Source: Trichocoleus desertorum ATA4-8-CV12 | GTDB lineage: Bacteria > Cyanobacteriota > Cyanobacteriia > FACHB-46 | DNA: 50,282 nt | Assembly: GCA_019358975.1 (NCBI GenBank) | Contig: JAHHIL010000044.1 | Span: 1 to 50,282 of the forward strand | Reading direction: 5' to 3' | Shown here: positions 10,156 through 33,177 of the stretch, one piece after another | How positions within the stretch are numbered: the stretch's first letter is position 1 | How the letters are laid out: every line of letters begins with the position of its first letter | The notes under the pieces: model-generated | What the model saw: the letters and a program-made list of their open reading frames with translations, nothing else | Databases searched by the model: none | Told to the model about the DNA's origin: nothing | Translations under genes and position numbers: made by a program

Positions 10156-10321
10156 TACCATTCCTCTTTAGAGTACCTAGCTATCTTCATACGTTACTTC
10201 TCCATAAGAAGGCTACATTTCTAAAGTGCCCTATTTATTTGGGATTTCACCTGCACTTCATCGCACACTAATAGGCAGGGAATGAAACCGTTGTACTCAT
10301 CCCCTGTCCATAAACACTAGC

Positions 10322-10546
10322 CTACTCAGGCCTACCCGTCCGATTGGATGGCATCATTAAGCCGATGTAGCCTCCAACACCAACCTTGGCAAGGTCCGCA
10401 AATGTAGCACGGGCATCCTCATCAACCCATGCTAGGGCAAAGGAACCGATGACCAGCACCAAAATTACGAATGGAAGAATGTCAGGTTTCTGTGGGCGGC
10501 GCGATCGCTTCGTTTTCTGCATTACATTTGTTCTTGAATTCGACAC
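10322..10546 (-). CDS. Small single-pass membrane protein (74 aa)
   Basis: A short ORF with a basic N-terminus (TKRSRRPQK), one strong membrane segment (ILPFVILVLVIGSFALAWV) and a conserved-looking tail (ATFADLAKVGVGGYIGL). A partial second copy at 7921-7990 shows that the sequence has been duplicated, which supports it being a real gene. It lies upstream of the nuclease-ParA operon on the same strand, 160 bp away, and divergent from the NACHT gene. The function is unknown; membrane association is the only safe prediction. Confidence 0.55.
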   Translation of the reverse strand: MSNSRTNVMQKTKRSRRPQKPDILPFVILVLVIGSFALAWVDEDARATFADLAKVGVGGYIGLMMPSNRTGRPE

Positions 10547-10598
10547 CCCTATCGTCGCGATCGCAGCTTCTGTTCCAGTTTCAGTTAGGGCAAAGCCA

Positions 10599-10634
10599 GG
10601 TATGACTTCAGCCTAAGTTCGGTATGACTTCAGC
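10599..10634. promoter_or_regulatory. Two 14-bp direct repeats upstream of the NACHT gene
   Basis: GGTATGACTTCAGC occurs at 10599-10612 and 10621-10634, a 22-bp period (about two helical turns). It ends 38 bp before the NACHT start. The arrangement suits a dimeric activator or repressor; no regulator is identified. Confidence 0.5.
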
Positions 10635-10672
10635 GCCGTGGGTAAAATAAGCTCAACTTTCACCGTTGAACT

Positions 10673-13144
10673 ATGGGCACGCGATCGCTCCAGGCCTCGC
10701 AAAAAGGGATCGAGAAGGCAAAAGTTGCTTTAGCTCACTATTCGCTCAACCAAAATGCTCTAGCAGAAGATTTGGGGCTCTCCCGGCAGACCATCAACAA
10801 ATTCTTCAAGGGGAAGCCGATCGACCGCGAGAACTTTGCTCTCATTTGCGATCGCCTGGGGTTGAATTTAGAAAATACGGTCGCGATCAATCATGTGGCC
10901 TCTGAACCTAATGAGCTAAGCGATCGCCCCTACATAGATGCCGTAGTTCAAGAAGTTAGGCAAAAAGTCTACGCCAGTATTCAGAAGCGATGTGGCACCA
11001 TGCGGGTATTGGACATGGAGCAGCCCATCTCACTGGACTCCATTTACACCAAAGTCAACATTTTGGAGAAAGTCAGCCGCAATCAACGACGAACAATCGC
11101 GGAACTGCTAGAAGGATGTGACGTAAAAGACTTCGATCGCTTTACATTGGGTCGTGTCTGGCAGGAGCCAATACCAGGATTAGAGGCCGTTCAGCGTCAT
11201 GACAAACTCCTCATTCTAGGTAAACCTGGAGCCGGGAAAACCACGTTTCTCAAATGGCTAGCGATTCAGTGTAACGAGGGACAATTGTACACCAATCGAG
11301 TGCCGATGTTTGTCACCTTGAAGGAGTTCGCTGAACAACCAGGACAGCCCAGCTTGCAATCCTTCATTTGCTCCCAGTTTGAGGCCTGTGGAATTGATGA
11401 TGCCGTGAAGACGACCGAAATCCTGTTGCAAGAGGGGCGATCGCTGGTTTTATTAGATGGGTTAGATGAAGTTCGGGATGTAGATCACGATCGTGTGTTG
11501 CAAGAAATCTGTAGTATTTCTGCCCTGTGTCATGCCAGCCAGTTTGTCATTACCTGCCGGATTGCTGCCCAAGAGTATACCTTTGAGCAGTTTACAGAGG
11601 TTGAAGTTGCTGACTTCGATGATGACCAGATTGCTGAGTTTTCCCAGAACTGGTTTCATCGGAAAAACCCAACCAAAGCAGACCAATTTCCCAAAGAACT
11701 GAAAACCCACAAACGTCTGACAGAACTAGCAACTAATCCTCTACTTCTTACCCTTCTATGTCTAGTATTTGAAGAACGGGCAGACTTTCCGACAAACCGA
11801 GCAGAACTCTACAAGGAAGGTTTGGACATCTTACTGAAGAAATGGGATGTCAAACGCAACATCAAGCGAGATGACGCCTACAAAGACTTGTCTTTGAAGC
11901 GTAAGGAAGACTTATTGAGCCAGATTGCCTTTACTACCTTTGAAGGAAGTGAGTATTTCTTCAAGCAAAGGGTAGTAGAGCAGCAAATCGAGCAATACAT
12001 CTGGAACCGACCGAATGCCAGTACTAACCCGGAAGCATTGCAAATTGATAGTGAGGCTGTTTTGAAATCCATTGAGGCACAGCATGGACTATTGGTAGAA
12101 AGGGCACGAGGCATTTACTCCTTCAGCCACCTGACTTTTCACGAGTATTTTACTGCTCGTCGAATTGAAAAGCGTGATGAACTATATCCATTTCTCATTT
12201 CCCATTTGACCGAGAAGCGATGGCGAGAAATCCTGCTATTAACGGTAGGGATGATGGAGGAGGCAGACTCTCTGCTGCTTAAGACGAAGTTTCGGATTGA
12301 TAAGATGCTGGCAACTGACGAAAAACTTCAACAATTTCTTAACTGGGTTCAGCAGAAATCTTGCTCAGCAAACGTGCCCTACAAACCCGCTGCCGTTCGA
12401 GCGTTCTACTTTGCCCTCGAAATTGCCCAAACCCTCAACCTCGACCGCTTCTTCAACCTCGACCTCGACCACGCCCTCAAACTTGCCCGCACTGTTGACG
12501 AAGGCCTCGACCTCGACCTCGACCTCGACCTCGGCCTCGACTTCGGCCTCGCCCGTTCCCGTATCTACGCCCATGCCCTCAATTTCGACTGCAACGACGA
12601 CCGCTTCTTATCCCTCAACCTAGCTGTCGGCCTGGCCCGTGAGCGCGCCCTCGACCACTTCTTCAACCTCGACCTCGACCTCGACCTTGAGCGCTTCATC
12701 GGACTCGATCCCGAGCGCTTTCTCGACTTGCTCCGTGACCTCAACCTCGACCTCGACTGGTTCCTCAGCCTTGCCCGCGCCCACAGCTACGCCCTTGCAC
12801 TCTACCAATCCCTTGCCAAACTTAAGGAACAACTTCCAGATCCTTGGGAAAATTGGGATTATATTCAACAATGGTGGCAGGCTAATGGTTCATCCTGGGT
12901 AATCCAACTAAGAGCCGTGATGATTGAACATCACAATATGTGGCATGACTGGCAGTTTAGCGCTACCGAGATAAAACAACTGCAGCAATATTACGATGCC
13001 AACAAATTGCTAGTTGAGTGCCTTAACAGTGATTGCCAGGTTAGCCAAGAAGTTCGTGAGGAAATCGAAGCCAGTTTGCTACTTCCTATCGAAGAGATCA
13101 AGCACCGCTTCCCCAATCAACTGAACAACCCCAGCACCTCTTAA
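10673..13144 (+). CDS. HTH-NACHT STAND ATPase with Leu-Asp repeat C-terminus (probable anti-phage)
   Basis: An 823-aa STAND ATPase. Residues 8-72 form a Cro-like HTH (LAEDLGLSRQTINKFFKGK). The NACHT domain has Walker A LGKPGAGKTTFLK (about 182-194) and Walker B LVLLDGLDEV (about 258-267), followed by the helical NACHT arm (THKRLTELATNPLLLTLLCL) and a winged-helix region (YSFSHLTFHEYFTARRI). The C-terminal 240 residues hold degenerate Leu-Asp repeats (LDLDLDLD and FFNLDLD), probably the sensor. Bacterial NACHT proteins (bNACHT) are known anti-phage NTPases; that role is by family. The same N-terminal HTH type occurs in the pentapeptide protein at 48834. No separate effector domain is visible. 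Confidence 0.88.
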   Translation: MGTRSLQASQKGIEKAKVALAHYSLNQNALAEDLGLSRQTINKFFKGKPIDRENFALICDRLGLNLENTVAINHVASEPNELSDRPYIDAVVQEVRQKVYASIQKRCGTMRVLDMEQPISLDSIYTKVNILEKVSRNQRRTIAELLEGCDVKDFDRFTLGRVWQEPIPGLEAVQRHDKLLILGKPGAGKTTFLKWLAIQCNEGQLYTNRVPMFVTLKEFAEQPGQPSLQSFICSQFEACGIDDAVKTTEILLQEGRSLVLLDGLDEVRDVDHDRVLQEICSISALCHASQFVITCRIAAQEYTFEQFTEVEVADFDDDQIAEFSQNWFHRKNPTKADQFPKELKTHKRLTELATNPLLLTLLCLVFEERADFPTNRAELYKEGLDILLKKWDVKRNIKRDDAYKDLSLKRKEDLLSQIAFTTFEGSEYFFKQRVVEQQIEQYIWNRPNASTNPEALQIDSEAVLKSIEAQHGLLVERARGIYSFSHLTFHEYFTARRIEKRDELYPFLISHLTEKRWREILLLTVGMMEEADSLLLKTKFRIDKMLATDEKLQQFLNWVQQKSCSANVPYKPAAVRAFYFALEIAQTLNLDRFFNLDLDHALKLARTVDEGLDLDLDLDLGLDFGLARSRIYAHALNFDCNDDRFLSLNLAVGLARERALDHFFNLDLDLDLERFIGLDPERFLDLLRDLNLDLDWFLSLARAHSYALALYQSLAKLKEQLPDPWENWDYIQQWWQANGSSWVIQLRAVMIEHHNMWHDWQFSATEIKQLQQYYDANKLLVECLNSDCQVSQEVREEIEASLLLPIEEIKHRFPNQLNNPSTS
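12434..12770 (+). repeat. CTCGAC hexanucleotide-rich repeat tract inside the NACHT gene
   Basis: Repeated CTCGAC (Leu-Asp) units, some perfectly tandem around 12507-12535 and 12668-12690, encode the Leu-Asp-rich C-terminal region. The same hexamer builds the repeats in the gene at 44193. Such tracts are prone to slippage in steps of two residues without frame loss. Confidence 0.8.
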
Positions 13145-14202: not shown

Positions 14203-16013
14203 GGGGTAAAGGTAGCGAAGATACTGTTGGCGAATTCATCAGAGAAAAATGAAGCTTGGCGTCTAGCCTAGGATGAGAGTAAAGCTTTACAGCTCAGCAG
14301 AGGTGTAGCATGTCCATACAACCCCAGCCCATTCCTCCAGTTCCAGAGGATACCGCAGCAGTCGCACGAGCTGCTTTTCCCAAAGGTAACCTCTACCTTC
14401 AAATCCGCGATACACTTGGCAGCCTCTATCAAGACGAATCTTTTGTCTCACTCTTTTCCAGGCGAGGACAACCTGCACAATCTCCCTGGCGGTTGGCTTT
14501 AGTTTGTGTGATGCAGTTCATGGAAAATCTCTCTGACCGCCAAGCTGCTGATGCTGTTCGAGCTCGCATCGATTGGAAGTATGTCCTCAGTCTGCCACTC
14601 AGCGATCCAGGATTCAATTACTCGATTTTGAGTGAGTTTCGCGATCGCCTGGTGGCAGACAATGCTGAATCCCTGTTGCTAGACCCGTTGCTAGAACAAT
14701 TACGTGAGAAGGGATTACTCAAAGGACATCAGCGGCAACGCACCGATTCCACTCATGTTCTCGGGGCAATTCGAGTATTGAATCGCCTCGAAACATTGGG
14801 AGAGACCTTTCGAGCTGCGCTCAATAGCCTAGCGGTTGCGGCTTCAGATTGGCTAGAGCCACATTTACAAGCAGCTTGGTTTGAGCGCTATCATCGGCGC
14901 ACTGAGAACTATCGCTTGCCTAAATCAGACAGTGAACGCGAAGCATTGGGTCGCACGATAGGCCAAGATGGATTGACATTGCTAGATGTTGTTTATCATG
15001 CCTCTTCTCCAGAGTGGTTACGACATGTTCCAGCCATAGAAACCCTCCGACAAGTTTGGCTCCAGCAATTTTATGCACTAGGTGAAGATGGCGCTCTCCA
15101 ATGGCGATCGCCTAAAGACATGCCACCGTCTACGCTAGCGATACATTCTCCCTATGATGTGGCAGCCCATTACAGCACCAAACGAAGTGTGGATTGGGTG
15201 GGATACAAAGCTCACCTGACTGAAATCTGCGATGAGGCTTGCCCCCATTTCATCACTGGCGTTTATACAACGCTCTCCACAACCCCAGATGATGCAGTCG
15301 TTGATGCAGTTCATGAAGGCCTATCAGAGAGGACGCTGCTTCCCAAAGAACACCTGATGGATACAGGATATATAACCGCTGCCCATATCCTCAACAGTGA
15401 CAAAAAGTATGGTATTGACTTGGTTGGAGCAGTGCGAGGCAATCCCAGCTGGCAGAGTCGAAAAAACTCCAAGTTTACTTCAGACCAATTTGCCGTCAAT
15501 TGGAATGAGCAAACAGTAACCTGTCCTCAAGGACATCAGAGCATCATTTGGAGAGAAAAGATCGATAACCGGAGTTTGCCCGTCATCCATGTGCATTTTT
15601 CACAAGCTGATTGTCGCCGCTGCCCCGTTCGCAAACGCTGTACTCACTCAAAATATGCTCGCAGGCTGACACTACAACCGCAAGCCAAATATGCTGTTTT
15701 ACAGCAACGGCGGCAAGAGCAGGAAACCGCAGAGTTTAAGGAGCGCTATCAACAGCGAGCGGGAATTGAGGGAACGTTATCCCAGGGAGTCAGACGTTCG
15801 GGTCTACGGCAATCTCGCTATGTAGGATTAGCGAAAACGCATCTTCAGCATATTCTTACCGCAGTTGCTCTCAATTTGATTCGTCTGGATGCTTGGCTCT
15901 CAGGAGTTCCCTTAGCAAAAACTCGTACCTCTCGATTCCTGGAGCTTAAGTCTCGAGTTGCATAGATTTTTCTCTGATGAATTCGCCAACAGTATCTTCG
16001 CTACCTTTACCCC
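14203..16013 (+). mobile_element. IS1182-family insertion sequence, copy 1 (1811 bp)
   Basis: It has 48-bp perfect terminal inverted repeats (14203-14250 and 15966-16013), outermost bases GGGGTAAAGGTAGCGAAG. It encodes one intact transposase. The left flank is CTATA and the right flank ATCTA, so it has no matching target duplication of its own. Each flank matches the opposite flank of copy 2 (38297-40107), which indicates recombination between the copies. Confidence 0.92.
14310..15965 (+). CDS. IS1182-family transposase
   Basis: A 551-aa transposase, identical in protein sequence to the one at 38404-40059. It has the N-terminal DUF772-type region (SPWRLALVCVMQFMENLSDRQAADAVR, then FNYSILSEFRDRL). 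The DDE catalytic domain starts at RTDSTHVLGAIR and ends around RAGIEGTLSQGVRRSGL. Between them is a zinc-ribbon-like cluster (CRRCPVRKRCTHS). The stop codon sits immediately before the right terminal repeat. The only coding difference from copy 2 that I saw is silent (15939 C versus 40033 T). Confidence 0.94.
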   Translation: MSIQPQPIPPVPEDTAAVARAAFPKGNLYLQIRDTLGSLYQDESFVSLFSRRGQPAQSPWRLALVCVMQFMENLSDRQAADAVRARIDWKYVLSLPLSDPGFNYSILSEFRDRLVADNAESLLLDPLLEQLREKGLLKGHQRQRTDSTHVLGAIRVLNRLETLGETFRAALNSLAVAASDWLEPHLQAAWFERYHRRTENYRLPKSDSEREALGRTIGQDGLTLLDVVYHASSPEWLRHVPAIETLRQVWLQQFYALGEDGALQWRSPKDMPPSTLAIHSPYDVAAHYSTKRSVDWVGYKAHLTEICDEACPHFITGVYTTLSTTPDDAVVDAVHEGLSERTLLPKEHLMDTGYITAAHILNSDKKYGIDLVGAVRGNPSWQSRKNSKFTSDQFAVNWNEQTVTCPQGHQSIIWREKIDNRSLPVIHVHFSQADCRRCPVRKRCTHSKYARRLTLQPQAKYAVLQQRRQEQETAEFKERYQQRAGIEGTLSQGVRRSGLRQSRYVGLAKTHLQHILTAVALNLIRLDAWLSGVPLAKTRTSRFLELKSRVA

Positions 16014-16211: not shown

Positions 16212-17141
16212 TTAAGCGATCGGCTGAGGTTGAAGGAGAGGAGCGCTTAAAAAGAAGCGAAACAGCTTCCGCAAGTTGAAGCCACAACCCGCTAGGAAGG
16301 CATTGATTCGGTCACCGTCTTGTCCTCTCAAATAGTTGCGCTTGAGAGCATGGTCTTGTTTGACGTGCCCAATCACAGGTTCAATCGCGCTGCGCCGTTT
16401 GAGCAGTCGCTTGAGTGCCTGGTTCCGCTTGCGGGTGCCTGCCACCAGGACTTCCACATCAGGAGGATGATGAGAGGTCCCTCGAAACCCTTTGTCCACA
16501 GCAGCTTGCTTCGGTTTGATAGCCGTGAGGTGTTGGGTTTGACTCAGTGCTTCTCTCAAGGTGGCTCCATCATAGGGATTGCCATGCACCGCATCCATGC
16601 CCACAATCCAGTTGCTGGCATGAGTGGTCACGAGCACCACCTTACAGCCAAACTCATAGCGTTTGTGCACTTTGCCCTTAGCGATGCATTCGGTTTCAGG
16701 TGCGTGCACACTGTAGAGTTTGCCTGTGTCCTTGGGCTGTTGCACATAGATGCGTTTGGCAATCTCCAAGAGTGCCTGCAACTCTGGCGGCAGTTGCTTC
16801 ATCTTGCGCTCAATGTCACGAATGACTCGTCCTAGATAGGTGCGGAGTTTGCGAGTTTGTTGCCTTGCTCGCTTGCCTTGCTTGGCTGCGGCATAGCGAC
16901 TTTGGCGGAATAAGGCTTGCTTGCCCAGTCGTACATAGCTCTGCCTCAGTTGGACGTGATGCTTGCGAGCAAAGCGCACCAAGGCTCGTCTGGCTTTGTC
17001 GTACAAGCGAGCATCGGTGGGAAAGGCAATTGCCTTCTCCTGCACGGTCGTGTCCACATTCACCCGAGCAATTTCAGAGGGTTTGAGGGCTTGCTGATTC
17101 ATGGCGCTTCGCAGGGTTTTCTTATGCTGATCAAGACTCAA
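16212..17141 (-). pseudogene. 5'-truncated IS5-type (DUF772) transposase
   Basis: 309 codons remain open but the N-terminal DUF772 region is missing. The frame starts only at a TTG, with a TGA three codons upstream. The DDE residues are still present: VNVDTTVQEKAI, AAVDKGFRG, SAIEPVIGHVKQDH. A full member would be about 440-480 aa, so roughly the first third is lost. It lies inside the decayed Tn3-type element whose right end is at 17272. It is unrelated in sequence to the intact IS5 element at 7012. Confidence 0.75.
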
Positions 17142-17322: not shown

Positions 17323-18483
17323 TCAGGTATAGAGGATAGTTCTAATTGCCCCAATGGTACTGGATAAGACATGAGCTGCTGCCTCAACTTCCTCATTAGT
17401 CGTGAACTTACCTATTCCAATCCGGAGTGCACCCTCAATCAAAGATTCTGGAAGAGCCATTTCATGGAGAACATGAGAGGGAGTTTCAATACCAGTTGAA
17501 CAAGCTGCTCCTGTAGAAATTGCTATTTTTTGACGAACCCTAGCAATAATTGCACTGTTGGGAATGTTTGGAATTGAGATGTGAAGGTTTCCTGCTAGTC
17601 GATTCTCAGCATCCCCATTGACTATCAAATCGGTTACTTCTCTAGATAAGAGAGCTTGAAGACGGTCGCGCTTGCTTGCGATCGCCCTTTCATCCTCCTC
17701 CATCTCCAGCGATCGCAACCGGCAAGCTTCTCCCAACCCTACAATCCCTGGAACGTTAAGAGTGCCCGATCGCATTCCTCGCTGATGACCACCACCAAAT
17801 ATAAGTGGTTCCAATTGATAGCCTCTACGCACAGCTAGCGCTCCAACACCTTTAGGACCGTAGAGCTTGTGGGCAGAGATTGCTAGGTAGGTGATGCCCC
17901 ACTCTTCAAATTGCATGGGAATTTTACCGACTGCCTGAGAGCCATCACATAGAAAAGGAATGCCATAGCGTTGAGCAATTCGCCCAACCTTTTGAATAGG
18001 GTAAATGTTGCCAATCTCGTTGTTAGCTGCCATGACACAGAGCAGAGACATCCCCTTAGTGCAGACCTGCTCCAAATGTTCGAGGTCAAGCCTGCCTCTG
18101 GAATCTATTTGCAGATAAACTAGTTCAGCACAACCTCGCTTCTCTAAAGCGCGACAGGTATCAAGGACTGCTTTGTGTTCGATCGGCATTAAGCCAATTC
18201 GATGGGGGTTTGTGGAGTTAGGGGTTAGGCCCCCCTGAATTACTAGATTGATGCTTTCAGTTGCACCGGATGTCCAAACAATTTCCCCCGGTGAGGCTCC
18301 TATGAGGTCAGCAACTTGTTTAGCAGCTTGCTTAACAGCGGTCTCAGCGCGATCGCCCTGCTCATGATCAGTGCTGCTAGCGTTGCCAAACTCTGTAACC
18401 ATGTAATGGTAAATGCGATCAGCTACTCGTGGATCAACGGGAGTTGTTGCATGGTAATCAAGATAAATCACACTTCTAATCAC
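17323..18483 (-). CDS. sspA: Cysteine desulfurase of the phosphorothioation system (SspA/DndA)
   Basis: A 386-aa class V aminotransferase-fold enzyme of the IscS/NifS/DndA type. It takes sulfur from cysteine as a persulfide and passes it to the DNA-modifying enzymes. The PLP lysine is K206 in ISAHKLYGPKG, and the persulfide cysteine is C328 in STGAACSTG. The N-terminus YLDYHATTPVDPRV is typical. It starts with GTG, 9 bp after the stop of the DndB-like gene, and is the last gene of the operon. Its place beside sspBCD and a DGQHR gene marks it as the dedicated sulfur donor rather than housekeeping IscS. Confidence 0.9.
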   Translation of the reverse strand: MIRSVIYLDYHATTPVDPRVADRIYHYMVTEFGNASSTDHEQGDRAETAVKQAAKQVADLIGASPGEIVWTSGATESINLVIQGGLTPNSTNPHRIGLMPIEHKAVLDTCRALEKRGCAELVYLQIDSRGRLDLEHLEQVCTKGMSLLCVMAANNEIGNIYPIQKVGRIAQRYGIPFLCDGSQAVGKIPMQFEEWGITYLAISAHKLYGPKGVGALAVRRGYQLEPLIFGGGHQRGMRSGTLNVPGIVGLGEACRLRSLEMEEDERAIASKRDRLQALLSREVTDLIVNGDAENRLAGNLHISIPNIPNSAIIARVRQKIAISTGAACSTGIETPSHVLHEMALPESLIEGALRIGIGKFTTNEEVEAAAHVLSSTIGAIRTILYT

Positions 18484-18492
18484 CTATTAGTC

Positions 18493-19818
18493 TTAATCTT
18501 CTTCATCTTCCTCGTGAGGTTGATCATTTTGTCCAGACCAATTGATAAGTGGAAGTAGGGAAGCTTTTTTATTACCAATAGCATCACGATATTTCTGCTT
18601 GAGCTCACGAACTTTTACTGATGTTCTAAGCCCTAAAGCATGGTTGATCATTGTGGCGATGAGTGATCTCTCTTTTCTTCCACCAATAATGGAACGTGCT
18701 AATGGATTCCAGATTACACCTGCCCAGGGTGCATCATCAATATTCATTGAAACCTGAGTCATAATTGCTACAATTACATCTGGAATTGACTTTCTTTGAA
18801 TACCAGCTTGTTTGATAACCTCTGCAACAACATACTGACCAACTGGACGTAGAAAAACATTACCACCATAAATAAGTTTTTGATGGTCGTTTATAGTAGG
18901 TAAACCATCAGAATCAAGGAGAAGACGGAGATCACCCGGTTTTTTTCTCCCGCTTTTAACAGCATCAAATCCAGGGCAACAATCGAGCATCTTTTCCCAT
19001 ATTTCTTCTAAAAACAAATAATATTTATCCAAATCATCACTTGAAGGTCTAAATCTTTTGAAATCGTTATCAATTTGTAGACCCCCTTCATAAGCACTAA
19101 GCAGAATCTCGTTTACTTCATACAGAGAGGCAAGCGTTGTAATGTACGATTCATTTGCTTTACTTGGTGCAAGTTGCTTAGAGCCCAAAGTATTTAAAAC
19201 TAATCCTTTTAACACATTACTTTCTTTTACCAATCGACGTGAAATGATCGCTACTCCGTCATCTTCATCAATGGCAATATTCATACCAGAAGATGTTGGT
19301 TTTGCGCGCCGATTGAGAGTAGAAAATAATCTGCGAGTTCGTTGTAGCCCTTCCTTAGAATCCTCATGTTTAAGGATAATTACAGTAATCTCTTCTTTTG
19401 CCAAGTCAGGTTCTATCTTTATGGCTTCTTGGATAGACTTTAATCTGTGTTGTCCATCCAAAGCGTAGTAGACCTGACTTCCATCAAAACGAAGTAATCC
19501 AAAGCCATAACTGCCTCTGTCTTTATCATCTAGGAGTTCATGCTCATCAACTCTTACTGGTGAAAACTCTGGTTCTCCTCCATAAACAGCCACGACTAAA
19601 GCACCGTAGAATCGCTGCGGCTCATGGATAAGGTAAGGAACCATTTCTTTTTCAACACGATCTTGAATTGCCCTTTGGATTAAAGCATCAAGATCCTTAT
19701 CTGTATGAATTTCCTCTGCAAGCCTACACTCACGGGCGACTTTACCCAATTTCATTACGGTAACGTAGTATCTCCAATCACCCATCCGAGCTTGTAATGC
19801 TGGCACGTAATCTGGCAC
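18493..19818 (-). CDS. dndB: DGQHR-domain protein, DndB-like
   Basis: A 441-aa protein with the diagnostic motif YYALDGQHRLKSI (DGQHR at residues 121-125), an extended helical middle and an acidic tail (QPHEEDEED). DGQHR proteins are found with dnd clusters; DndB acts as a transcriptional regulator and influences where DNA is modified, with ATP- and DNA-binding activity reported for the family. Start is GTG 19818, with AGGAGA upstream. It sits 28 bp after the GIY-YIG gene and 9 bp before the cysteine desulfurase. A DndB homologue beside single-strand-type ssp genes is a mixed arrangement. Confidence 0.85.
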   Translation of the reverse strand: MPDYVPALQARMGDWRYYVTVMKLGKVARECRLAEEIHTDKDLDALIQRAIQDRVEKEMVPYLIHEPQRFYGALVVAVYGGEPEFSPVRVDEHELLDDKDRGSYGFGLLRFDGSQVYYALDGQHRLKSIQEAIKIEPDLAKEEITVIILKHEDSKEGLQRTRRLFSTLNRRAKPTSSGMNIAIDEDDGVAIISRRLVKESNVLKGLVLNTLGSKQLAPSKANESYITTLASLYEVNEILLSAYEGGLQIDNDFKRFRPSSDDLDKYYLFLEEIWEKMLDCCPGFDAVKSGRKKPGDLRLLLDSDGLPTINDHQKLIYGGNVFLRPVGQYVVAEVIKQAGIQRKSIPDVIVAIMTQVSMNIDDAPWAGVIWNPLARSIIGGRKERSLIATMINHALGLRTSVKVRELKQKYRDAIGNKKASLLPLINWSGQNDQPHEEDEED

Positions 19819-19846: not shown

Positions 19847-20356
19847 TCAAAATGCTTTACCCCAGTGTTTCTGTCTATCAGGGATAATTTCGTTACATGG
19901 AGTTCGGCAACACATAAGAAGATGTTCTTCTACAGCATCTACATGAATTCGAGGTAGTTCAGCCCACCAAAAAACTAAGCGATTACGATATTTATTAAGC
20001 ATAAATACTACTTTTTTTCGACCCGTAATATTTTTTGCCTCTATAAGATAATCTTTATACCTTTCCGAAAGATATTGTTGAGCAGCTTTTCCAATGTACA
20101 AGGGAATATGAAGGTCTTCTGCAAAAGGCTTTCCTAATTTCGTTGAAAAGCAATACACTCCATACTTATTTGGGATGGAAGTTTGAGCATCACGAATAAA
20201 ATTACACTTTTGCCAGTTCAACTGAATAGCTTGCATCGCTACTGGAAACTCTTCTATATATTGTGGAAGCCATCGGAGGGTGAACTCGTAGTCTTTTGCA
20301 AATCGCCCTGCAATAGCTGCCTTCTGAGTAGCAAAATCATAGGGAGCATCAACCAT
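19847..20356 (-). CDS. GIY-YIG nuclease-domain protein in the phosphorothioation operon
   Basis: A 169-aa protein with all landmarks of the GIY-YIG catalytic core: NKYGVYCF, then PLYIGKA, the conserved Arg in LSERYKDYL, the metal-binding Glu in AVEEHLLMC and the Asn in TPCNE. About 60 N-terminal residues precede the nuclease domain. GIY-YIG enzymes cut DNA with a divalent metal. It lies between sspD and the DndB-like gene on the same strand, 329 bp after sspD. It could be the restriction arm missing from this island, or a repair or nicking accessory; that is inference. Confidence 0.75.
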   Translation of the reverse strand: MVDAPYDFATQKAAIAGRFAKDYEFTLRWLPQYIEEFPVAMQAIQLNWQKCNFIRDAQTSIPNKYGVYCFSTKLGKPFAEDLHIPLYIGKAAQQYLSERYKDYLIEAKNITGRKKVVFMLNKYRNRLVFWWAELPRIHVDAVEEHLLMCCRTPCNEIIPDRQKHWGKAF

Positions 20357-20685
20357 TTCCGTCTACCATTGGCGGGCTTCTAGTCCATTTTGCCCCGATT
20401 GCTTGGTAATGTAACCGTTGCCTCCAGGTAAGGATCTTTGGTTGTTACCGGGTTCCCTTCGGGGCACCCCCCGATTGCCCAGCATATTCGCCGCGATCGC
20501 TCAATCTTGAGTATTATGGCGAATTTGGTTGATCCAGGTGAGGAGCGATCACAAATTTGCCTTATCCAGTGAAGATTTAGGAAACAGCTATATGTTCTTA
20601 ATGGCAGGCTGCGGTTAAACTGACGTAGCCTATTTGCATTGAGGGGTTAGAGGGCTGAGTATCATAGCGTCTACTTCCTTGATCA
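20357..20685. other. Intergenic region between sspD and the GIY-YIG gene
   Basis: 329 bp without a credible gene. It contains a hairpin with a TTCG loop (GGGTTCCC/GGGCACCC around 20450-20469) that may terminate or attenuate the sspBCD transcript, and HIP1-type sites. It probably also holds a promoter for the GIY-YIG, dndB-like and sspA genes. No boxes are strong enough to name. Confidence 0.45.
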
Positions 20686-21492
20686 CTATAAGTGACATGC
20701 CAAACAGGGTAACGTGTCATCATCTTCATCGAGTACCGCTTCCAGCACTTCTGCCAACGGTTGATTGGGCTTTGTTTTTGCCTCTCGTACGATCGCTCGT
20801 TCATGGTCTGCAATAATTTCATCCTTACGTGCTAGCAATCCCAGCAATGTTTCGCCCTGCGTCCAAGTGTAGGTTCGACCATCGCTATGGTTTTGCTCGT
20901 AGGCGATCGCCTTGGCAAATAGGTCAGGATGCTCCTGCGCTAGCATCACCCACTCATACTTCCGCTGGAAGAAGCAGAAGTAACATCCTGAGCGACTGCG
21001 CCAGCGGTAATAGTCTGGTAAGCCAATGCCACTTTCCTCTAACAACCGAATAATATCTGCCTTAACTAGCCCATGTTCCTTAAAGGGGTAACGGGCTTGA
21101 ATTGTTGGCTTTGTCGAAATATAGCCTTCCCGGTGTTCATCTGCACGAATGCCAATATAGCTGATGGCATCGTCATCACCGATAAACTCCTCCAAAGGCT
21201 TAATCTTCATTTGTTTTGTACACCATCGCACTTGAGGAGATGGCAAAACGCCTCCATACACCTCTAACCAATGGTCAAAACCGCGATCGGCACTTAAGCG
21301 AATAATTTTGATACCCAGCCGAGCCTCAATGCGATCGAGATAATCATAAGTTTCTGACAGTTCCTTGTGGGTATCACAGAAAAAATACTCCATCGGCAGG
21401 TCAGGGTACTTTTGTCGCATCAGCACCGCTAGGGCAGTACTATCCTTACCCCCTGAAAGCCCCAGAATATGTCGAATGGGCTGCTTCACCAT
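20686..21492 (-). CDS. sspD: PAPS-reductase-family ATP pyrophosphatase (SspD/DndC-like)
   Basis: A 268-aa adenine-nucleotide alpha-hydrolase of the PAPS reductase family. The PP-loop is SGGKDS (residues 13-18). Cysteines in VRWCTKQMK and RSGCYFCFF fit the Fe-S cluster site described for DndC. It activates the DNA backbone phosphate or carries the sulfur during phosphorothioation. It is about half the length of DndC and similar to SspD of the single-strand Ssp system, which agrees with the DUF4007 and ATPase genes upstream. It starts 5 bp after the sspC stop, so it is the third gene of a tight operon. Confidence 0.86.
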   Translation of the reverse strand: MVKQPIRHILGLSGGKDSTALAVLMRQKYPDLPMEYFFCDTHKELSETYDYLDRIEARLGIKIIRLSADRGFDHWLEVYGGVLPSPQVRWCTKQMKIKPLEEFIGDDDAISYIGIRADEHREGYISTKPTIQARYPFKEHGLVKADIIRLLEESGIGLPDYYRWRSRSGCYFCFFQRKYEWVMLAQEHPDLFAKAIAYEQNHSDGRTYTWTQGETLLGLLARKDEIIADHERAIVREAKTKPNQPLAEVLEAVLDEDDDTLPCLACHL

Positions 21493-21497
21493 CTCCC

Positions 21498-24400
21498 TTA
21501 ATCCACCACCTTCGTTTTCCGTTTACCCCGCCTCTGACGGACTTCCTTCAATTCGTCGGGGGTTTGTACCTGCAACACCTCTCTTGCCAATTTAGCAATC
21601 AAAGCTTGCCGCAGTTTAGCATCGTTCCGGAGGGTCGGCTTGTCTAAGATCTCATCCACTAACCGATTCAGTTGTTCTTCCTGGGTCTGGTCAATCCAGA
21701 CAACCTGGTTTAGTTCGTGTCCGTCTGATTTGGTGACGGTAAGCCGATATGCCTCAAAGCCTTCATGGTCAGTCGCTGCAATATCTTTTTGTAAGGCTTC
21801 TAGTCGCTTAAACTGTCGAGCAACATCATTCAGCTTCAATTCAAAGGCAGCGCGATCGTCATCGCTCCAAGTATGGGCAGGCTTATCTGCCAAAATCATC
21901 ATCAGGGATTCTAACCACTCCGTATCTGCCAACATGGTATCGCTCGCCGCTAGCGTAAAGCGCCTCAGCATTGGCTCCAAGCAGCGATCGACCAAGTAGT
22001 TGGCTCTCACACGCAAATCAGGCCGCAAATGCTCTAGGTTACTACGGACTCCGAAAGCAGCATGAAGCAACTGCCGACCAGTACTCAGGAGATTTTCATA
22101 GGTAATCTCTAATTCATGAAGTGCTTTAACCAACCGTTTGCGGAAGGTTCGTGCCGCCGATTCATCATTTGGATCAGCATGCCGAATGGGAGCCAACCCA
22201 CAGGCTTGAGGCAGACTAGTAAACAATAGTTTATCTGGCTCTTGAGCTGTTTGCAACGTTTTCAGGACTGCCTGAGCTTCAGCACTCAGTTGTTGAGTTT
22301 TCAGGGTGTAGGCTGGCAGCTTCTTGACGAACTGGAACAACGGCTTGGCGATCGCCAAGAGCGAAGTGTTCCGTACTCCCGCAGGGACTCGACTCCGCCA
22401 AATAGCTTCCAATTCTTGAAAGACCTGGGATCGCAGCCCTGCCATTTCAAACGATTTAACGGCAAACCGTCCGGGTTGTTTCACTAACAACTCAAAATGA
22501 GGAGCCGTCAACACCGGAACAAACGTCCCATCATGATAAAGCCCGACATCATCAACGTGGTAAAGCAGCATAGCAGCTAACAGCACTGGGATTACCCCTG
22601 GTTTAACGCCATAGGGTGGAGCCCCTAGCAAGGCGTATAGCTGATCGAGGCTGCGCGGTTGTTCAGCAGATTTCAAACAAAAGGATTCAACTGACTGCCA
22701 GAGACTTGATAAATCTGTCCTGCCATTGCCTTTTTGTTTGGCAGAACGATTTGCAATTGGCGGATAGAAACCCCATTCTCCATTCTCCTGGCGGTGAATC
22801 CCTGGCTCTGCCAGCACCGAGTAATACATGCTCACTTCAGGACCATAGCCCTTCAGTCCCAATTTCTCCTGATCTTCATGGTTCAGCATGCCTTCAATCA
22901 ACTCACGCCGCGCCTTTGCCCCTTGAGAGGTAAGTTCTCGCCGGTTAATCAATTCATTCCAAAGAGTAGGGCTATGGCAATAGACCTTCTCACACACCTC
23001 CGATAATGCTGCATTGAGATCGGCGCTATCTCGAATCTCCTGCTGTTCTCCTAAAAACCAGGAAAAGCTTTCAGAATTAGCGGGATCAAGTGCCTGAGTT
23101 AATGTCTCATCCATCAAGTTTTCTGCTTGCACCAACCGCTGCCGCACTTCCCGCCGAGCAACCCCATCCGTTTGCAATTCTGAAGCGGTTGATTGAATCT
23201 TTTCTAAGGCGGCAAATTCGATCGCGCGGTCGCGCAAGGTTTTGAGATGAGCCGTATTAACCACAATAAGAGGCTTACCATCTTTAGTGGTAGAAGGGGG
23301 AGCTTCTACAAGAGGTTGTGCCTCCATCCAGTACACGATCAAGCCGTCATAATCTGGCTTAGATACTTGAAGGGTGGATAGGTCATGAGTCTTATCTCCA
23401 TATCGCCGCTCAAAATAGCGGAGGGTTCCCACTCGGTAACTGTGGCGTTGAGCAACCAATGGTTTTAAGGCACGCACCCGTGACAAGATCTCAACTAGCG
23501 ATCCCCGTTCTTGTTCAAAATACTGGTCGATCGCAATCTGAACATTGAAATCAGATCCCTCCCAGATTCGCAGTTCATCCAACTGCTTACGGTAAGTAAT
23601 TAGGTTTTTCTCTAAAAGGGTTTGAATCGCCGTTTGCCAAGGGTTATCGCTAGTCGTTTCATCAGGCGACTCACACAATGGCAAGATTGACAGGGCTTGA
23701 GTTGCCCGTAGTGCCCCTGCCGATGTAATTAAATTAAGCGTACCAATCGTCTTGAGTGCCTGAATTACTTCAGGTGACAGATCCATTCGACGGCTGGCAT
23801 CTGCAACAACCCCCTGAACCTCTAGCCACTTCTGAACATTGGGACGAGATGACAACCCCATCCCTGCTGACTCTACAAAATAGTCGTAAACCTGATGGAT
23901 TTTTAGCGTTGGAATTAAATTTTTATTGAGAGCCGTTGAATCTAAGAATTGCTTAAAGGAATATGGCTCAGAACTCGTCAGGAAGGTAAAGAGAGAGCGA
24001 TCGTTTTGAGCATACCTCGTACACAGCTGGGGTAATACCAGAGAGGTCAGTGGATGAAGTGGATAAGCCTCTGCTAGTACCGCAGACGACAAATCACTTA
24101 ATTCTAGGTGCTCAGCTAGATGCTCAAACCATACCGTTGCTCGTTGCTGAATTAATTCTTTCAAAGCGCCTGCTTCGTTATGGATAATGGCTTGTCCCAG
24201 TAAACGAGTCATCTGTTCCGGCGATTCTGTGAAGGGAATATCCTCAAATCGCCCGTGAATTTTTGACCATTCTTTCCGCTCACTGGAAGCTAACCGTTCT
24301 CCGTAATCCCCAAAGGATTGGTGCAACACCCCAACGAGATACACCTGATAAGGCGTACGTTCAGGGAGTTCTGCGATTTGCTGCAACAGGTATAAGTCTG

Positions 24401-25043
24401 CAACGCCTTGATGTTGAGCTGCAAACTCCAACGTCTTGCCTAACTCATCAATCAGGAGTAGGACATCCGTCTTTGCTGCCTGCGCCACTGCCTGAATCAG
24501 TTGCAGAACTTGCTTTTCCTCAATCGAGTGACCAGCGGCAAGCTCTATCTCTAAGTCTACTAAATCAGCCAATATCTCTGGCTTCTTGCGGCTCCTTCGC
24601 CAAAATATTTCAACCCCTCGCCTTAATGCACGGACGATGGTATGACTGAGAGGCTCCCGCTGAGCAGTGCTAACTGCTTGCACGAGTCCCCGCCGTGGCA
24701 ATCCATCCGTAAGCGCTTGTAGCTCAGGACTGGCTGATCCCAGTGCCCGCTCTGCGATTGTCAACGCTTTTTGTCGCACAGGGCCAGCCTCTGACGCACA
24801 AAGCCCTGCCCAAAAGTGAGCAAATGCTGATTTACCTGTACCGTAAACCCCAGTCAGTGTCCAGGCACGTTGAGGGCTATTTTTAGTAAAAGCAGGTAAC
24901 ATGCGCCGTAACGCATCCACTGCTCGTTCCGTCACAATGTATCCTTCTACAGCATCTGGCAATTCCAGATCTCGCTCTAAATTAACCGAGCGAGCATAGC
25001 GACGGTTGAGGCTAAAGTACTGCGATAAAAATTTTTGAGCCAT
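21498..25043 (-). CDS. sspC: Large ATPase of the phosphorothioation system (SspC-like)
   Basis: A 1181-aa P-loop ATPase. Walker A is TGVYGTGKSAF (about 64-74) and Walker B DVLLLIDELGK (about 193-203), followed by a sensor-like region (VYLVGVLHQSFGDYGERL). The remaining roughly 900 residues are mostly helical without a domain I recognise. Identity as SspC rests on size, the P-loop and the exact position between the DUF4007 gene (5-bp gap) and the PAPS-reductase gene (5-bp gap), the SspB-C-D order. SspC is thought to supply ATP-driven action on DNA during modification. Confidence 0.82.
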   Translation of the reverse strand: MAQKFLSQYFSLNRRYARSVNLERDLELPDAVEGYIVTERAVDALRRMLPAFTKNSPQRAWTLTGVYGTGKSAFAHFWAGLCASEAGPVRQKALTIAERALGSASPELQALTDGLPRRGLVQAVSTAQREPLSHTIVRALRRGVEIFWRRSRKKPEILADLVDLEIELAAGHSIEEKQVLQLIQAVAQAAKTDVLLLIDELGKTLEFAAQHQGVADLYLLQQIAELPERTPYQVYLVGVLHQSFGDYGERLASSERKEWSKIHGRFEDIPFTESPEQMTRLLGQAIIHNEAGALKELIQQRATVWFEHLAEHLELSDLSSAVLAEAYPLHPLTSLVLPQLCTRYAQNDRSLFTFLTSSEPYSFKQFLDSTALNKNLIPTLKIHQVYDYFVESAGMGLSSRPNVQKWLEVQGVVADASRRMDLSPEVIQALKTIGTLNLITSAGALRATQALSILPLCESPDETTSDNPWQTAIQTLLEKNLITYRKQLDELRIWEGSDFNVQIAIDQYFEQERGSLVEILSRVRALKPLVAQRHSYRVGTLRYFERRYGDKTHDLSTLQVSKPDYDGLIVYWMEAQPLVEAPPSTTKDGKPLIVVNTAHLKTLRDRAIEFAALEKIQSTASELQTDGVARREVRQRLVQAENLMDETLTQALDPANSESFSWFLGEQQEIRDSADLNAALSEVCEKVYCHSPTLWNELINRRELTSQGAKARRELIEGMLNHEDQEKLGLKGYGPEVSMYYSVLAEPGIHRQENGEWGFYPPIANRSAKQKGNGRTDLSSLWQSVESFCLKSAEQPRSLDQLYALLGAPPYGVKPGVIPVLLAAMLLYHVDDVGLYHDGTFVPVLTAPHFELLVKQPGRFAVKSFEMAGLRSQVFQELEAIWRSRVPAGVRNTSLLAIAKPLFQFVKKLPAYTLKTQQLSAEAQAVLKTLQTAQEPDKLLFTSLPQACGLAPIRHADPNDESAARTFRKRLVKALHELEITYENLLSTGRQLLHAAFGVRSNLEHLRPDLRVRANYLVDRCLEPMLRRFTLAASDTMLADTEWLESLMMILADKPAHTWSDDDRAAFELKLNDVARQFKRLEALQKDIAATDHEGFEAYRLTVTKSDGHELNQVVWIDQTQEEQLNRLVDEILDKPTLRNDAKLRQALIAKLAREVLQVQTPDELKEVRQRRGKRKTKVVD

Positions 25044-25048
25044 TTACC

Positions 25049-25966
25049 TCACCTCGTCTGGTAATAATCTTGCAAAATTTGCTCCGCCAGAATCAGAGGA
25101 TCTTCTGTAAAGGAGAATTGAATTAATCCAGCTGTGTCCGATAGACTAATTGGCTCATGCTGTTGGGCAACTTGCTCAATTGCATTACACAAAGCACTTT
25201 CTGATAGCTTGAAGGCTAACCCTGGGCTACCTGCTTCATATAGTAAGCGAGAGACGGCGATCGTACCCTGCCCTTGCCGATCCTGGGCTGCAAACTCTAG
25301 ACAAGCAGAAACGACGACAGCTGGGGGTAAATTTCTTTTCGTCCCTACCCGGAACGTGTAGATACGAGTATCGCCAGCGGTATGCAACAGCCCTAACTCG
25401 GTAAAAGGGCAATCAATGGAGTCTTCTGTAAACCCCGATTTGCTTTGCTGCTCTACATACATTTTTAAGAGGCAACGAACGTCTTTTTGAAACGAAGACG
25501 AAGCAGTTCGTAGCCCTTGCTGTTTCTGGTAATAGTTCTCCAAAGCAACGAGCAGGTCTTGTTCAGTAAATTCGACTGAACGGAATAAATTAAAAGTGAA
25601 ATACCAGGTAGTTGCATAGCAAGGGAGTTTAAGCAACTGCCAGTGCAGCAACCAGAGCGAGGCGGAATCCTCTAAAAATGGGTCCCATCCTGTGTCGGCT
25701 AGTAACCGCTGTCCAAAGTCTGTCGGTTGATCATCCTGTAACAGCTTAAAAGCCTGTTCCCAATAGCGGATGGAGCGAACCATGTTTTTTCCAACCCCAA
25801 GCTGAATGGGAGCGCCCTCATTCAAAAACACCCTTGGATCTTGAATGGCACAATCGAAGCCCTTCTTCAGCCAGCCAAACCGGGGGTGAAAAGTTTCGTG
25901 GCGAGCAAAGACACTCGATTGACGAGTATCAACCCTTCCAAGATCAAGACTGATTTGCTCTACCAT
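25049..25966 (-). CDS. sspB: DUF4007 protein, SspB-like DNA nickase of phosphorothioation
   Basis: A 305-aa member of the DUF4007 family, shown by SVFARHETFHPRFGWLKKGF near the N-terminus followed by LGVGKNMVRSIRYWEQAF. SspB, the DUF4007 protein of the Ssp system, nicks one DNA strand as the first step of single-strand phosphorothioation. This gene is first in the sspB-sspC-sspD operon and divergent from the associated methyltransferase. DUF4007 is absent from double-strand Dnd clusters, so it marks this island as Ssp type. Confidence 0.87.
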   Translation of the reverse strand: MVEQISLDLGRVDTRQSSVFARHETFHPRFGWLKKGFDCAIQDPRVFLNEGAPIQLGVGKNMVRSIRYWEQAFKLLQDDQPTDFGQRLLADTGWDPFLEDSASLWLLHWQLLKLPCYATTWYFTFNLFRSVEFTEQDLLVALENYYQKQQGLRTASSSFQKDVRCLLKMYVEQQSKSGFTEDSIDCPFTELGLLHTAGDTRIYTFRVGTKRNLPPAVVVSACLEFAAQDRQGQGTIAVSRLLYEAGSPGLAFKLSESALCNAIEQVAQQHEPISLSDTAGLIQFSFTEDPLILAEQILQDYYQTR

Positions 25967-28348: not shown

Positions 28349-30697
28349 ATGGCTGATTCGCCCAAATCCACCGAAGCATCCTCTCCTTCCCCAGAGCCTA
28401 CCTCCGAATCTAACAAACCTAGCCCGGAGCGTCGCTTTATTCAACGGCAGGTGGTACAGCCTTTAATTCAGTGGATGCCATTGGGAGGCAGTGGCTGGCT
28501 ATTTGCTAGCTTTTGGTTAAAGCAAGAATGGACACAAGTTCTCCTTACCTTTCCCGTCACGATTGTGACGGCAGTATGGGCAGCTTACAGCAAGAACTTT
28601 GTTGAGCGGTTGTCAGAAATTTATGCAGAAAAGGGCAAACAAGATGCCGAAGTCTTAAATCAGTTGCTAGCCAACCTGGATGAGACAATTAAGTGGCAGT
28701 TTTCAGGCTTTGAAGCGAAATATCTGGAACTGCAAGCCAAACCTTGCCAAGAATACATAACCGAAGGCTTCAACCCAGATAAAACTGCGATCCCTATGTT
28801 GGAGGAAGTCTTCGTCCCGCTCCAGCTCAATGGTTATCTGATTGAGGGTAATGGACGCTTTATTGAGAACAGAAAAGATTCTGCAAAAGCAAACCAATCG
28901 TCTGAAGGAATTAATATTTGGGATTTAATTCTCAGATCACGCAAGAATCCAACATTTCGGCAAATGGCGATTCAGGCACAGGGAGGATTTGGCAAAACCA
29001 CATTGTTACGCCACATTGCCTTGATCTATGGGCAAGGAAAATACCGCCGCTACCGGGCACCAAAACTCATTCCTTTCTTGCTGTACTTGCGTGATTGGCG
29101 AGACAAACTATCACAGCCTGAGTTGCCAACTTTGCCCGATCTAATTAAGAACCATTTTCTACCCAAGTTATCGCCCAACAATCCACTCAAGCCCCCACCC
29201 GCATGGGTTGAAAACTTGCTGGAGCAGGGGGGAGCATTGGTGATGTTTGATGGCTTTGATGAGTTAGCTGAAGACCAACGTCAACGAGTTAGCCAGTGGA
29301 TTAGCCAACAAATGCAGGAGTACCATCGCACCACATTCATCATTACATCTCGCCCTGCCGGATTTAAAGACTATGTTGCCAAACGCCCGGCTGTACCACT
29401 ATTTGTCCAGAAGTTTAAGTCTTACCAACAAGAGCGATTCATCAAGCGGTGGTATCTCTGCCAAGAACGTTGTGCCCGCAGTGAGAAGCAGGCCAACCAA
29501 GCAAAAGAGGCCGCTGAGCGCAATGCTCAAAAGTTGTTGACTCAACTGCAAGACCCTGATCGCCCTGAACTGCAAGAGATGGCCGAAAACCCACTCTTGC
29601 TCAATATGCTGGCGACATTTCACCGTTTTGATCCGGGCACTGAGTTACCCAAACGGCGCATTGAACTCTACCGAGGGATCTGCAAACTACAACTCGAAGA
29701 TCGCCCTAGAGCGCGGGGCATTCCCATGCTGTTGCCTTATGAAAAAAGTCATCAGGTATTGCAATCGTTAGCACTGGCGATGGTGAAACGGTCTTCCCCC
29801 CGTGTTTCTTGCCAGTCGTTGATCAGTTTTCTAAAAAAACATCCCCTATTAAAACAAGAAGATGTTGGGGCAGAAGCCTTGCTCAAGCAAATGGTGCAGA
29901 TCAGCGAGTTATTAGTAGAGCGAGAACTAGGCTACTATGAGTTTCCGCATCTCAGCTTTCAAGGCTATTTTGCGGCCAGCTTTTTAGCCCAAAATCATAT
30001 CAAATCACTCGCTCTAGTGAGAGAAAACTGGGATAAAGCTTCATGGCGGGAAACGATCTTGCTTTACAGCGCTCAATTGCCCCCTCGGTTGATGACTGAT
30101 GTGATTCAACAAGTCTGCGATTTAGGCAAAGAAGCTGCTCAACTGGCCTATGACTGCTTGCGCGAGTATCGCAACCCAGAGAAGCTTGACCCAGGCTTAG
30201 AACAAGAACTCAGAGCACTAACTAGCACGGTACAAACCCTCCGCTACACAAAACTGGAGGAATATCTGAAAAGTAGGCACTGGAAAGAGGCCGATCAAGA
30301 AACCTATCGGCTGATGATTACGACAGTTGGCAGGACGGAGGGAGAGTGGTTTGAACCAGAAGAATTATTGACTTTTCCGCGTGATGAGTTACGGGCGATT
30401 GATGCCCTTTGGGTGAAATACAGCCATGGCATGTTTGGCTTTAGCGTCCAAAAGCAGATTTATGTAGGGTGTGGTGCTAAACTAGACGGCAAATTTCCTG
30501 GTGATGAAATCTGGTGGGAGTTTGGCAATCTCATGGGTTGGCGTAGGAATGGTAAATGGCTGAGTTACTCCCAAGTAGTCGGAACTTCTTTCTCCCTTCC
30601 CAATACAATTCTCCCTGTTATAGGTACTCTGTACTACGGCGTCGATGCGTTGGTGTCCGCGGGGGCATGCTCTCTTCTCTCGCACAAAGACTTGTAA
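28349..30697 (+). CDS. Membrane-anchored NACHT ATPase with C-terminal GUN4 domain
   Basis: A 782-aa protein. Residues 1-30 are a Ser/Pro-rich tail. Hydrophobic segments at about 38-56 and 62-79 suggest membrane anchoring. NACHT Walker A is QGGFGKTTLL (about 211-220), Walker B LVMFDGFDELAE (about 297-308), then the arm LQEMAENPLLLNML and the winged-helix box FPHLSFQGYFAA. The last 140 residues are a GUN4 domain: WKEADQETYRLM, LRAIDALWVKYS, FGFSVQKQIY and LMGWR. GUN4 binds porphyrins and activates Mg-chelatase; here it probably serves as sensor or signalling module. It follows the methyltransferase gene by 85 bp on the same strand, which suggests membership of the phosphorothioation island. Confidence 0.87.
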   Translation: MADSPKSTEASSPSPEPTSESNKPSPERRFIQRQVVQPLIQWMPLGGSGWLFASFWLKQEWTQVLLTFPVTIVTAVWAAYSKNFVERLSEIYAEKGKQDAEVLNQLLANLDETIKWQFSGFEAKYLELQAKPCQEYITEGFNPDKTAIPMLEEVFVPLQLNGYLIEGNGRFIENRKDSAKANQSSEGINIWDLILRSRKNPTFRQMAIQAQGGFGKTTLLRHIALIYGQGKYRRYRAPKLIPFLLYLRDWRDKLSQPELPTLPDLIKNHFLPKLSPNNPLKPPPAWVENLLEQGGALVMFDGFDELAEDQRQRVSQWISQQMQEYHRTTFIITSRPAGFKDYVAKRPAVPLFVQKFKSYQQERFIKRWYLCQERCARSEKQANQAKEAAERNAQKLLTQLQDPDRPELQEMAENPLLLNMLATFHRFDPGTELPKRRIELYRGICKLQLEDRPRARGIPMLLPYEKSHQVLQSLALAMVKRSSPRVSCQSLISFLKKHPLLKQEDVGAEALLKQMVQISELLVERELGYYEFPHLSFQGYFAASFLAQNHIKSLALVRENWDKASWRETILLYSAQLPPRLMTDVIQQVCDLGKEAAQLAYDCLREYRNPEKLDPGLEQELRALTSTVQTLRYTKLEEYLKSRHWKEADQETYRLMITTVGRTEGEWFEPEELLTFPRDELRAIDALWVKYSHGMFGFSVQKQIYVGCGAKLDGKFPGDEIWWEFGNLMGWRRNGKWLSYSQVVGTSFSLPNTILPVIGTLYYGVDALVSAGACSLLSHKDL

Positions 30698-32555: not shown

Positions 32556-33177
32556 AGTGTATCGCCTCCTCAAAGAGCTTGTTATAGTCTTTAGTTGCTG
32601 AAGTAGCAGCCTCACCAGTCATGCTGAATACAGTGGCAGCTTGCCCTGGCGCATCAGCAATAACTTGACGTTGGTAAATCACTGAGTTTAATAGTTTAAA
32701 GCCTTGAGTCTTTCTTAAGGCTTCTTGTGCCTCTCTAAGCAAGACTGTCCCTCGGGCTGCTCGGCTCAAGAACATGGCTGCTCTAGGCAGCCCTTTACGA
32801 ATTTTCTGTGCTTGATTGACTAAGCGAACGATATCCTTTGCTGAGAGCAAATCTAGATTAGAAGGTTGAACTGGAACAAGTGCTAAGTCAACACTTAACA
32901 ATACTGATTTAGCTGGTTCTCCGAGAACTGAGGGTGAATCCACAATCACGGAATCATACTCTTCAGTAAACTTACCAATTTGATCAAACAAGTCGTCTGG
33001 ATCATTGATCACAACAGAGGGCATGTCCAGCTTTTTAAGCCACTGGCTAGAGCTTGCTTGCCCATCTGCATCGATTAGCATAACGCGCTGTTGCTGCTGG
33101 AATAGCCAGTAGGCAAGATGCACTGCTGTTGTTGACTTCCCACAGCCACCTTTTCGATTGAGGACTCCAATCAGCAT
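32527..33177 (-). CDS. parA: ParA-family partition ATPase (small type)
   Basis: A 216-aa small ParA without N-terminal HTH. Walker A is NRKGGCGKSTTAVHL with the signature lysine, Walker A' is VMLIDADGQASSSQWL, and the Walker B region is YDSVIVDSPSV. It works with ParB encoded downstream, overlapping by 29 bp. A perfect 12-bp palindrome lies 31 bp upstream of its start. It is the only ParA in the 16014-38296 half, whereas the other half has two. Confidence 0.93.
   Translation of the reverse strand: MLIGVLNRKGGCGKSTTAVHLAYWLFQQQQRVMLIDADGQASSSQWLKKLDMPSVVINDPDDLFDQIGKFTEEYDSVIVDSPSVLGEPAKSVLLSVDLALVPVQPSNLDLLSAKDIVRLVNQAQKIRKGLPRAAMFLSRAARGTVLLREAQEALRKTQGFKLLNSVIYQRQVIADAPGQAATVFSMTGEAATSATKDYNKLFEEAIHYGETEEPAR

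Follow-up and report, generated by a model that had tools for sequence, protein, structure and literature searches.

In SspE, phosphorothioation (PT) of DNA is read through a pocket in which a tyrosine precedes Gln-Arg, GTP is hydrolysed by the DGQQR motif, and the HNH nuclease is then licensed (PMC13251355). DndI is built like SspE, but PT marks make DndI release self DNA (PMC11662687). The DGQ(H/Q)R, QR and FxxxN motifs are common to GmrS and the DGQHR proteins (PMC4619093). In published searches, SspE or SspFGH lies beside only ~15% of sspBCD loci (PMC8092258), which leaves a gap in phage restriction at the remaining sspBCD loci. As regards GIY-YIG (URI) nucleases, the occurrence of such genes near Dnd loci was already published in 2024, as the main text of that paper attests (PMC10853773).

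The window analysed here (the whole stretch of DNA, a contig of 50,282 bases from Trichocoleus desertorum) carries a PT operon on its minus strand. It comprises, in order, the genes for SspB (a DUF4007 protein, recognised by PADLOC and domain match; 25049..25966), the large ATPase SspC (21498..25043; 1475 bits with the PADLOC SspC model) and SspD, a sulfurtransferase of the PAPS-reductase family (20686..21492; PADLOC SspD, 1.2e-116), then a gap of 329 nt (20357..20685), the nuclease gene considered here (19847..20356), 28 nt, a gene for a 441-aa DGQHR-domain protein of divergent DndB type with a GTG start (18493..19818), and the gene for a cysteine desulfurase of the SspA/DndA type with a PADLOC SspA match (17323..18483). 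All four of SspA, SspB, SspC and SspD thus have PADLOC matches and, because these are the flanking genes, the operon is of the Ssp and not of the Dnd kind: its modification genes are SspBCD, not DndCDE. The preliminary description had the nuclease gene coupled to the DndB-like gene by 28 bp; the gap is exactly 28 nt and contains AGGAG, which resembles a ribosome site. No remnant of SspE is recognisable in the gap between SspD and the nuclease, the corresponding place being filled by an intact SspE in the cyanobacterium UBA2566. Elsewhere in the genome from which the window comes, neither SspE nor a full SspH was found; contig C4 has a GmrSD-like ORF of 564 aa, whose match is weak and spans 125 aa, and another contig has a HerA-like ORF.

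Divergent from the ssp operon stands a gene for a PT-associated putative methyltransferase (TIGR04096; 26185..28263, plus strand; 881 bits for a cut-off of 150), which has two repeated, similar halves. The contig, which may be a plasmid, also holds ParA-like ORFs, neighbouring genes for ParB and ParA, and transposase-like ORFs (1312-2082, 31641-33177, 14310-15965 and 16212-17141). Two further plus-strand genes encode an HTH-NACHT-like protein with Leu-Asp repeats (LDLDLDLD; 10673-13144, the repeats being encoded by low-complexity DNA near 12.3-12.8 kb) and a NACHT-like protein (28349-30697) with a match to PADLOC PD-T4-6 in its C-terminal part (1.6e-30).

The nuclease ORF encodes 169 aa from an ATG start, and its product matches no Pfam, NCBIfam or PADLOC model. 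Single members of its family touch GIY_YIG_2, GIY-YIG and DUF123 in Pfam, and the best values with curated models among the eight members (GIY_YIG_2, E=0.0037; GIY-YIG, E=0.0091) are not convincing. Such a match does not define the superfamily, and for this divergent subfamily, which lacks one, membership rests on profile comparison. A profile of the eight members was compared with one built from 24 cyanobacterial GIY-YIG domains (UvrC, YhbQ-like and others): the score was 48.2 (probability 94%), whereas none of 60 column-shuffled targets exceeded 17.8, the reversed target gave 15.6 and an unrelated family 17.1, and the five GIY-YIG motif positions were aligned in register. A profile search of the PDB returned three sequences, each of them a UvrC GIY-YIG domain and each weakly matched (E 0.38-1.1), and an AlphaFold2 model made from only four sequences had a mean pLDDT of 34.5. 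The GIY-YIG identity first proposed for the ORF is thus borne out, and so is the retention of the catalytic positions: G66-V67-Y68, Y87-I88-G89, R99, E143 and N155 are all present in the window ORF. G66, Y68, Y87, G89, R99 and E143 are identical in 7/7 full-length relatives, and N155 is replaced by Ser in Roseobacter. As judged from profile comparison, the window ORF is a divergent member of the GIY-YIG superfamily, with a predicted cutting activity.

It had also been suggested that the 60-residue N-terminal part of the nuclease could read the modification. This idea was not supported: residues 2-44 form the least conserved region of the protein and differ in length among members, and only L46 and W48 (LxW) are fixed, along with F or Y at position 53, just ahead of the start of the catalytic domain (IP-x-GxY). 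To judge from the alignment, the N-terminus does not look like a conserved modification-reading domain. The DndB-like partner is the likelier sensor, even if it lacks the PT-sensing Tyr of SspE and DndI. The nuclease is in any case not a stand-alone reader, the partner being present wherever the nuclease was found complete and with its downstream flank.

Relatives of the nuclease were found in Coleofasciculus sp. S288 (82%; adjoining SspD) and UBA2566 (66%), on Rhizobium pTi plasmids, on plasmids of Rhizobium NXC14 and Roseobacter litoralis, in an integrative element of Salmonella Infantis and on a viral contig, giving a small sample of eight members, seven of them full-length. The gene is rare: it occurs in one of the 386 cyanobacterial species sampled and in one of the 36 cyanobacterial Ssp (SspB) genomes searched, where an additional match was left out of the count (E=0.014, covering only 38 residues). 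Its partner is constant. In every locus found that extends downstream of the nuclease gene, a DGQHR protein of one clade is encoded directly after it, at a spacing of 27-28 nt in cyanobacteria and with an overlap of 1-4 nt in proteobacteria. The association also holds when approached from the partner: a tblastn search of plasmids with the window DGQHR protein returned two groups of records, five with E<=6e-49 and nine with E between 1e-6 and 1e-13, and the GIY-YIG gene is present in 5/5 of the strong records versus 0/9 of the weaker, DndB-like ones, searches with the nuclease adding no other plasmids. Three of the five strong records are near-identical; counted as lineages, the contrast is 3/3 versus 0/9 (Fisher p ~0.005). 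The tight linkage of the two genes, originally noted from the window, is supported. The preliminary description had also staked its proposal on the nuclease accompanying DGQHR and ssp genes in other genomes; it was found with DGQHR and with ssp or dnd genes in cyanobacteria, Rhizobium, Roseobacter and Salmonella, and so with both kinds of PT modification.

Among the 386 cyanobacterial genomes, 39 carry SspB. The DGQHR clade (>600 bits) is present in three, all of which (3/3) carry SspB and have the DGQHR gene within their ssp locus (hypergeometric p ~0.001). SspE was found in only 1/36 of the cyanobacterial Ssp genomes searched, so that most Ssp systems of cyanobacteria must employ another means. 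Compared to the window, nuclease dN amounts to 0.12 for the Coleofasciculus locus (L003) and 0.25 for the UBA2566 locus (L004), within an overall range of 0.12-0.27, synonymous sites being saturated; the partner has a dN/dS of 0.11 (window versus L003 or L004). Nuclease and partner distances co-vary over seven loci (Mantel r 0.90, p 0.02), a co-variation that becomes weak (r 0.51, p 0.07) when L004 is left out and only one of the two close cyanobacteria is kept. Viral contigs gave no match to the nuclease alignment and one contig (L011), bearing a 5'-truncated nuclease ORF, to the DGQHR alignment. Its segment 8803-14025 comprises, besides the truncated GIY-YIG ORF, a DGQHR gene that is intact and, following a DNA adenine methylase, a large gene that lacks annotation; in the vicinity of the pair, PT genes were not recognised. 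The Salmonella-type pair was not found in E. coli genomes by DNA similarity.

The partner is a relative of DndB. The window protein passes the PF14072 threshold (E=8.5e-32), scores 81.5 of the 328 bits set as the TIGR03233 equivalog cut-off, and is homologous to canonical DndB over most of its length. The partners nevertheless form a clade of their own, with pair-profile scores of no less than 290 bits, as against ~50 for canonical DndB. The possibility that the partner is merely the system's own DndB was rejected because a separate canonical dndB is present in two loci (Rhizobium NXC14 and Salmonella). Its DGQHR, QR and FxxxN motifs are intact. The residue ahead of QR is I or L in 8/8 partners examined, SspE and DndI having YQR. 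Against SspE/GmrS N-domain profiles the partner scored 29.5, for a shuffle maximum of 27.3, and the alignment covered no more than the DGQ(H/Q)R motif, which is too weak to claim anything beyond motif sharing. A profile search with the DGQHR family found no solved structure, and the AlphaFold2 model of the partner, made from only three sequences, had a mean pLDDT of 45.6.

We propose, with a probability of about 55%, that the GIY-YIG and DndB-like genes constitute a mobile two-gene accessory cassette of PT systems, encoding an effector of the restriction or abortive type. The host DNA would receive its sulfur marks from SspABCD or, in other loci, from DndBCDE. The DGQHR protein, as a putative member of the ParB/sulfiredoxin-like NTPase superfamily that includes the sensor domains of SspE, DndI and GmrS, would bind DNA and nucleotide and act as the control subunit, and the GIY-YIG protein would be the catalytic subunit, nicking or cutting DNA judged to be non-self. 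The pair would then resemble a split SspE or GmrSD in which the HNH nuclease has been swapped for a separate GIY-YIG protein. Such a split sensor-nuclease is the most economical reading because the DGQ(H/Q)R, QR and FxxxN motifs of GmrS and the DGQHR proteins are all found in the partner. The physical complex, the nuclease activity, the use of NTP, the target and the PT dependence are what we infer here. The weakest link would seem to be the sensor step, given the replacement of Tyr by I or L in all eight partners. A further point against the cassette is that its partner is a full-length homologue of DndB, a protein reported as a transcriptional regulator. The small sample and the weak co-variation of the two genes without L004 count against it too, as do the presence of complete restriction modules beside the pair and the retention of the partner without the nuclease in two cyanobacteria, both described below. 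A more specific form of the proposal may be entertained, although we consider it somewhat more likely to be wrong than right: the pair would be a new PT-sensing effector serving both Ssp (single-stranded) and Dnd (double-stranded) systems, in which a DndB-like NTPase sensor licenses or restrains the GIY-YIG nuclease, and the sole restriction arm in SspABCD loci devoid of SspE and SspFGH.

The genomic contexts of the pair bear on these proposals. In the window and on Roseobacter pROLI83, the pair accompanies SspABCD alone, without a second known restriction gene next to it. In UBA2566, the order is SspBCD, intact SspE, pair, SspA, with SspE directly upstream of the pair. On Rhizobium pTi, the SspABCD operon occupies one strand and the other carries a run in which the pair stands at the head of SspF, SspG and SspH. 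On the Rhizobium NXC14 plasmid, the pair occurs with DndBCDE, a cysteine desulfurase and a CxC-type module, and in the Salmonella integrative element it is followed by a GmrSD/DndI-like gene, opposite DndBCDE. The Salmonella DGQHR frame is broken once near the gene start (L012, 12125-12150), its N-terminus lying in another frame, which may reflect decay or an error in sequencing. In the two loci that have their modification genes on one strand and their restriction genes on the other (Rhizobium pTi and Salmonella), the pair is on the restriction side. As complete restriction modules coexist with it in several loci, the pair is not required as the restriction arm. This coexistence with SspE, SspFGH or DndI-like modules would also suit a back-up suicide effector, in which the DndB-like protein restrains the GIY-YIG nuclease until a phage blocks the main PT system and DNA is attacked indiscriminately. 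Such a role agrees with the small size of a stand-alone nuclease lying beside a putative control protein, and was already proposed, according to the main text of Rakesh et al. 2024 (PMC10853773), for stand-alone URI genes at the edges of Dnd loci. A pure back-up, however, leaves unexplained why the window and Roseobacter pairs sit inside SspABCD operons with no other known restriction gene alongside, and we regard it as unlikely.

Two cyanobacteria retain the partner without the nuclease. In one of them (G073), the DGQHR gene is kept between SspD and SspA, together with DEAD helicase and GHKL ATPase genes, and just upstream of it lies a decayed nuclease C-terminus with a stop at the codon of the catalytic Glu, whose score was reached by 0/1500 shuffles. 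The helicase and ATPase genes lie between the DGQHR gene and SspA (L017, G073:C35, 6521-9959), and similar genes, plus a PLD nuclease, adjoin the Roseobacter pair (L009, 11477-15901). In the other cyanobacterium (G250), an HNH_4 protein takes the place of the nuclease beside the DGQHR gene, and SspD was not found in the genome; the interval from SspC to the DGQHR gene, in which SspD and the nuclease would be expected, encodes an HNH_4 protein and a PD-(D/E)XK-like protein (L032, G250:C63:1-18000, 8847-10773). The partner can therefore function alone. This, together with its homology to DndB over most of its length, its PF14072 match and its position between SspD and SspA in cyanobacteria, would also be compatible with a regulatory pair, in which the DGQHR protein, in the manner of DndB, would repress or limit phosphorothioation, with the GIY-YIG protein serving modification itself (for instance by nicking DNA or processing it for sulfur insertion, or by repair at PT sites). 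We find this reading rather less plausible still than a suicide back-up: most Ssp systems do without the pair, as the single nuclease among 36 cyanobacterial Ssp genomes illustrates, so the nuclease is not needed for modification; two Dnd loci possess a canonical dndB as well; and on Rhizobium pTi it is the SspFGH operon, rather than the modification operon, that begins with the pair. It is, lastly, highly improbable that a homing-type or repair GIY-YIG gene landed in the operon as a chance passenger, since, common as such genes are in mobile elements and despite the transposase and ParA/ParB genes of the contig, the same order and tight coupling recur in cyanobacteria, alpha- and gammaproteobacteria and a viral contig, the plasmid records divide as described above, the pair is under strong purifying selection, and the decayed nuclease of G073 lies at exactly the same place.

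Since the same two genes turn up next to further sulfur-DNA systems in bacteria that are not related, they probably serve these antiviral defences as an additional, exchangeable weapon or safeguard. As a compact, exchangeable nuclease-sensor pair found with both Ssp and Dnd, the cassette is a testable candidate for filling part of the restriction gap, and it suggests a possible role as nuclease control subunits for the DndB-like proteins, which usually go by the name of regulators. In the literature searched, we found no account of the obligate pair or of its link to Ssp, although Dnd-linked members may figure in the supplementary tables of PMC10853773.

Compared with known systems, the pair shares a GIY-YIG catalytic domain with another defence nuclease, the type IV restriction enzyme CMoRE/PD-T4-3, which differs in that a single polypeptide also senses 5hmC, through a C-terminal domain, and in having no PT genes (PMC12923530). 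Like the URI genes that the main text of PMC10853773 places at the borders of Dnd loci, it features a GIY-YIG nuclease adjoining PT genes, and the NXC14 and Salmonella loci are probably of that same kind; unlike the pair, the genes treated in that main text are stand-alone URI suicide effectors of Dnd loci, described there with neither an obligate DGQHR partner nor an Ssp link. The partner resembles DndB (PF14072/TIGR03233) in its overall homology and in its three motifs, and is distinguished from it as a separate clade that falls below the TIGR03233 cut-off and coexists with canonical dndB in two loci. Finally, as in the PT-sensing nickases SspE (DUF262-DUF1524) and DndI and in the type IV GmrSD enzymes, a DGQ(H/Q)R control part is coupled to a nuclease beside PT genes; unlike in these, the pair consists of two separate proteins, GIY-YIG replaces HNH, and the partner belongs to the DndB family (PF14072) and not to DUF262, with I or L in place of the PT-sensing Tyr before QR.
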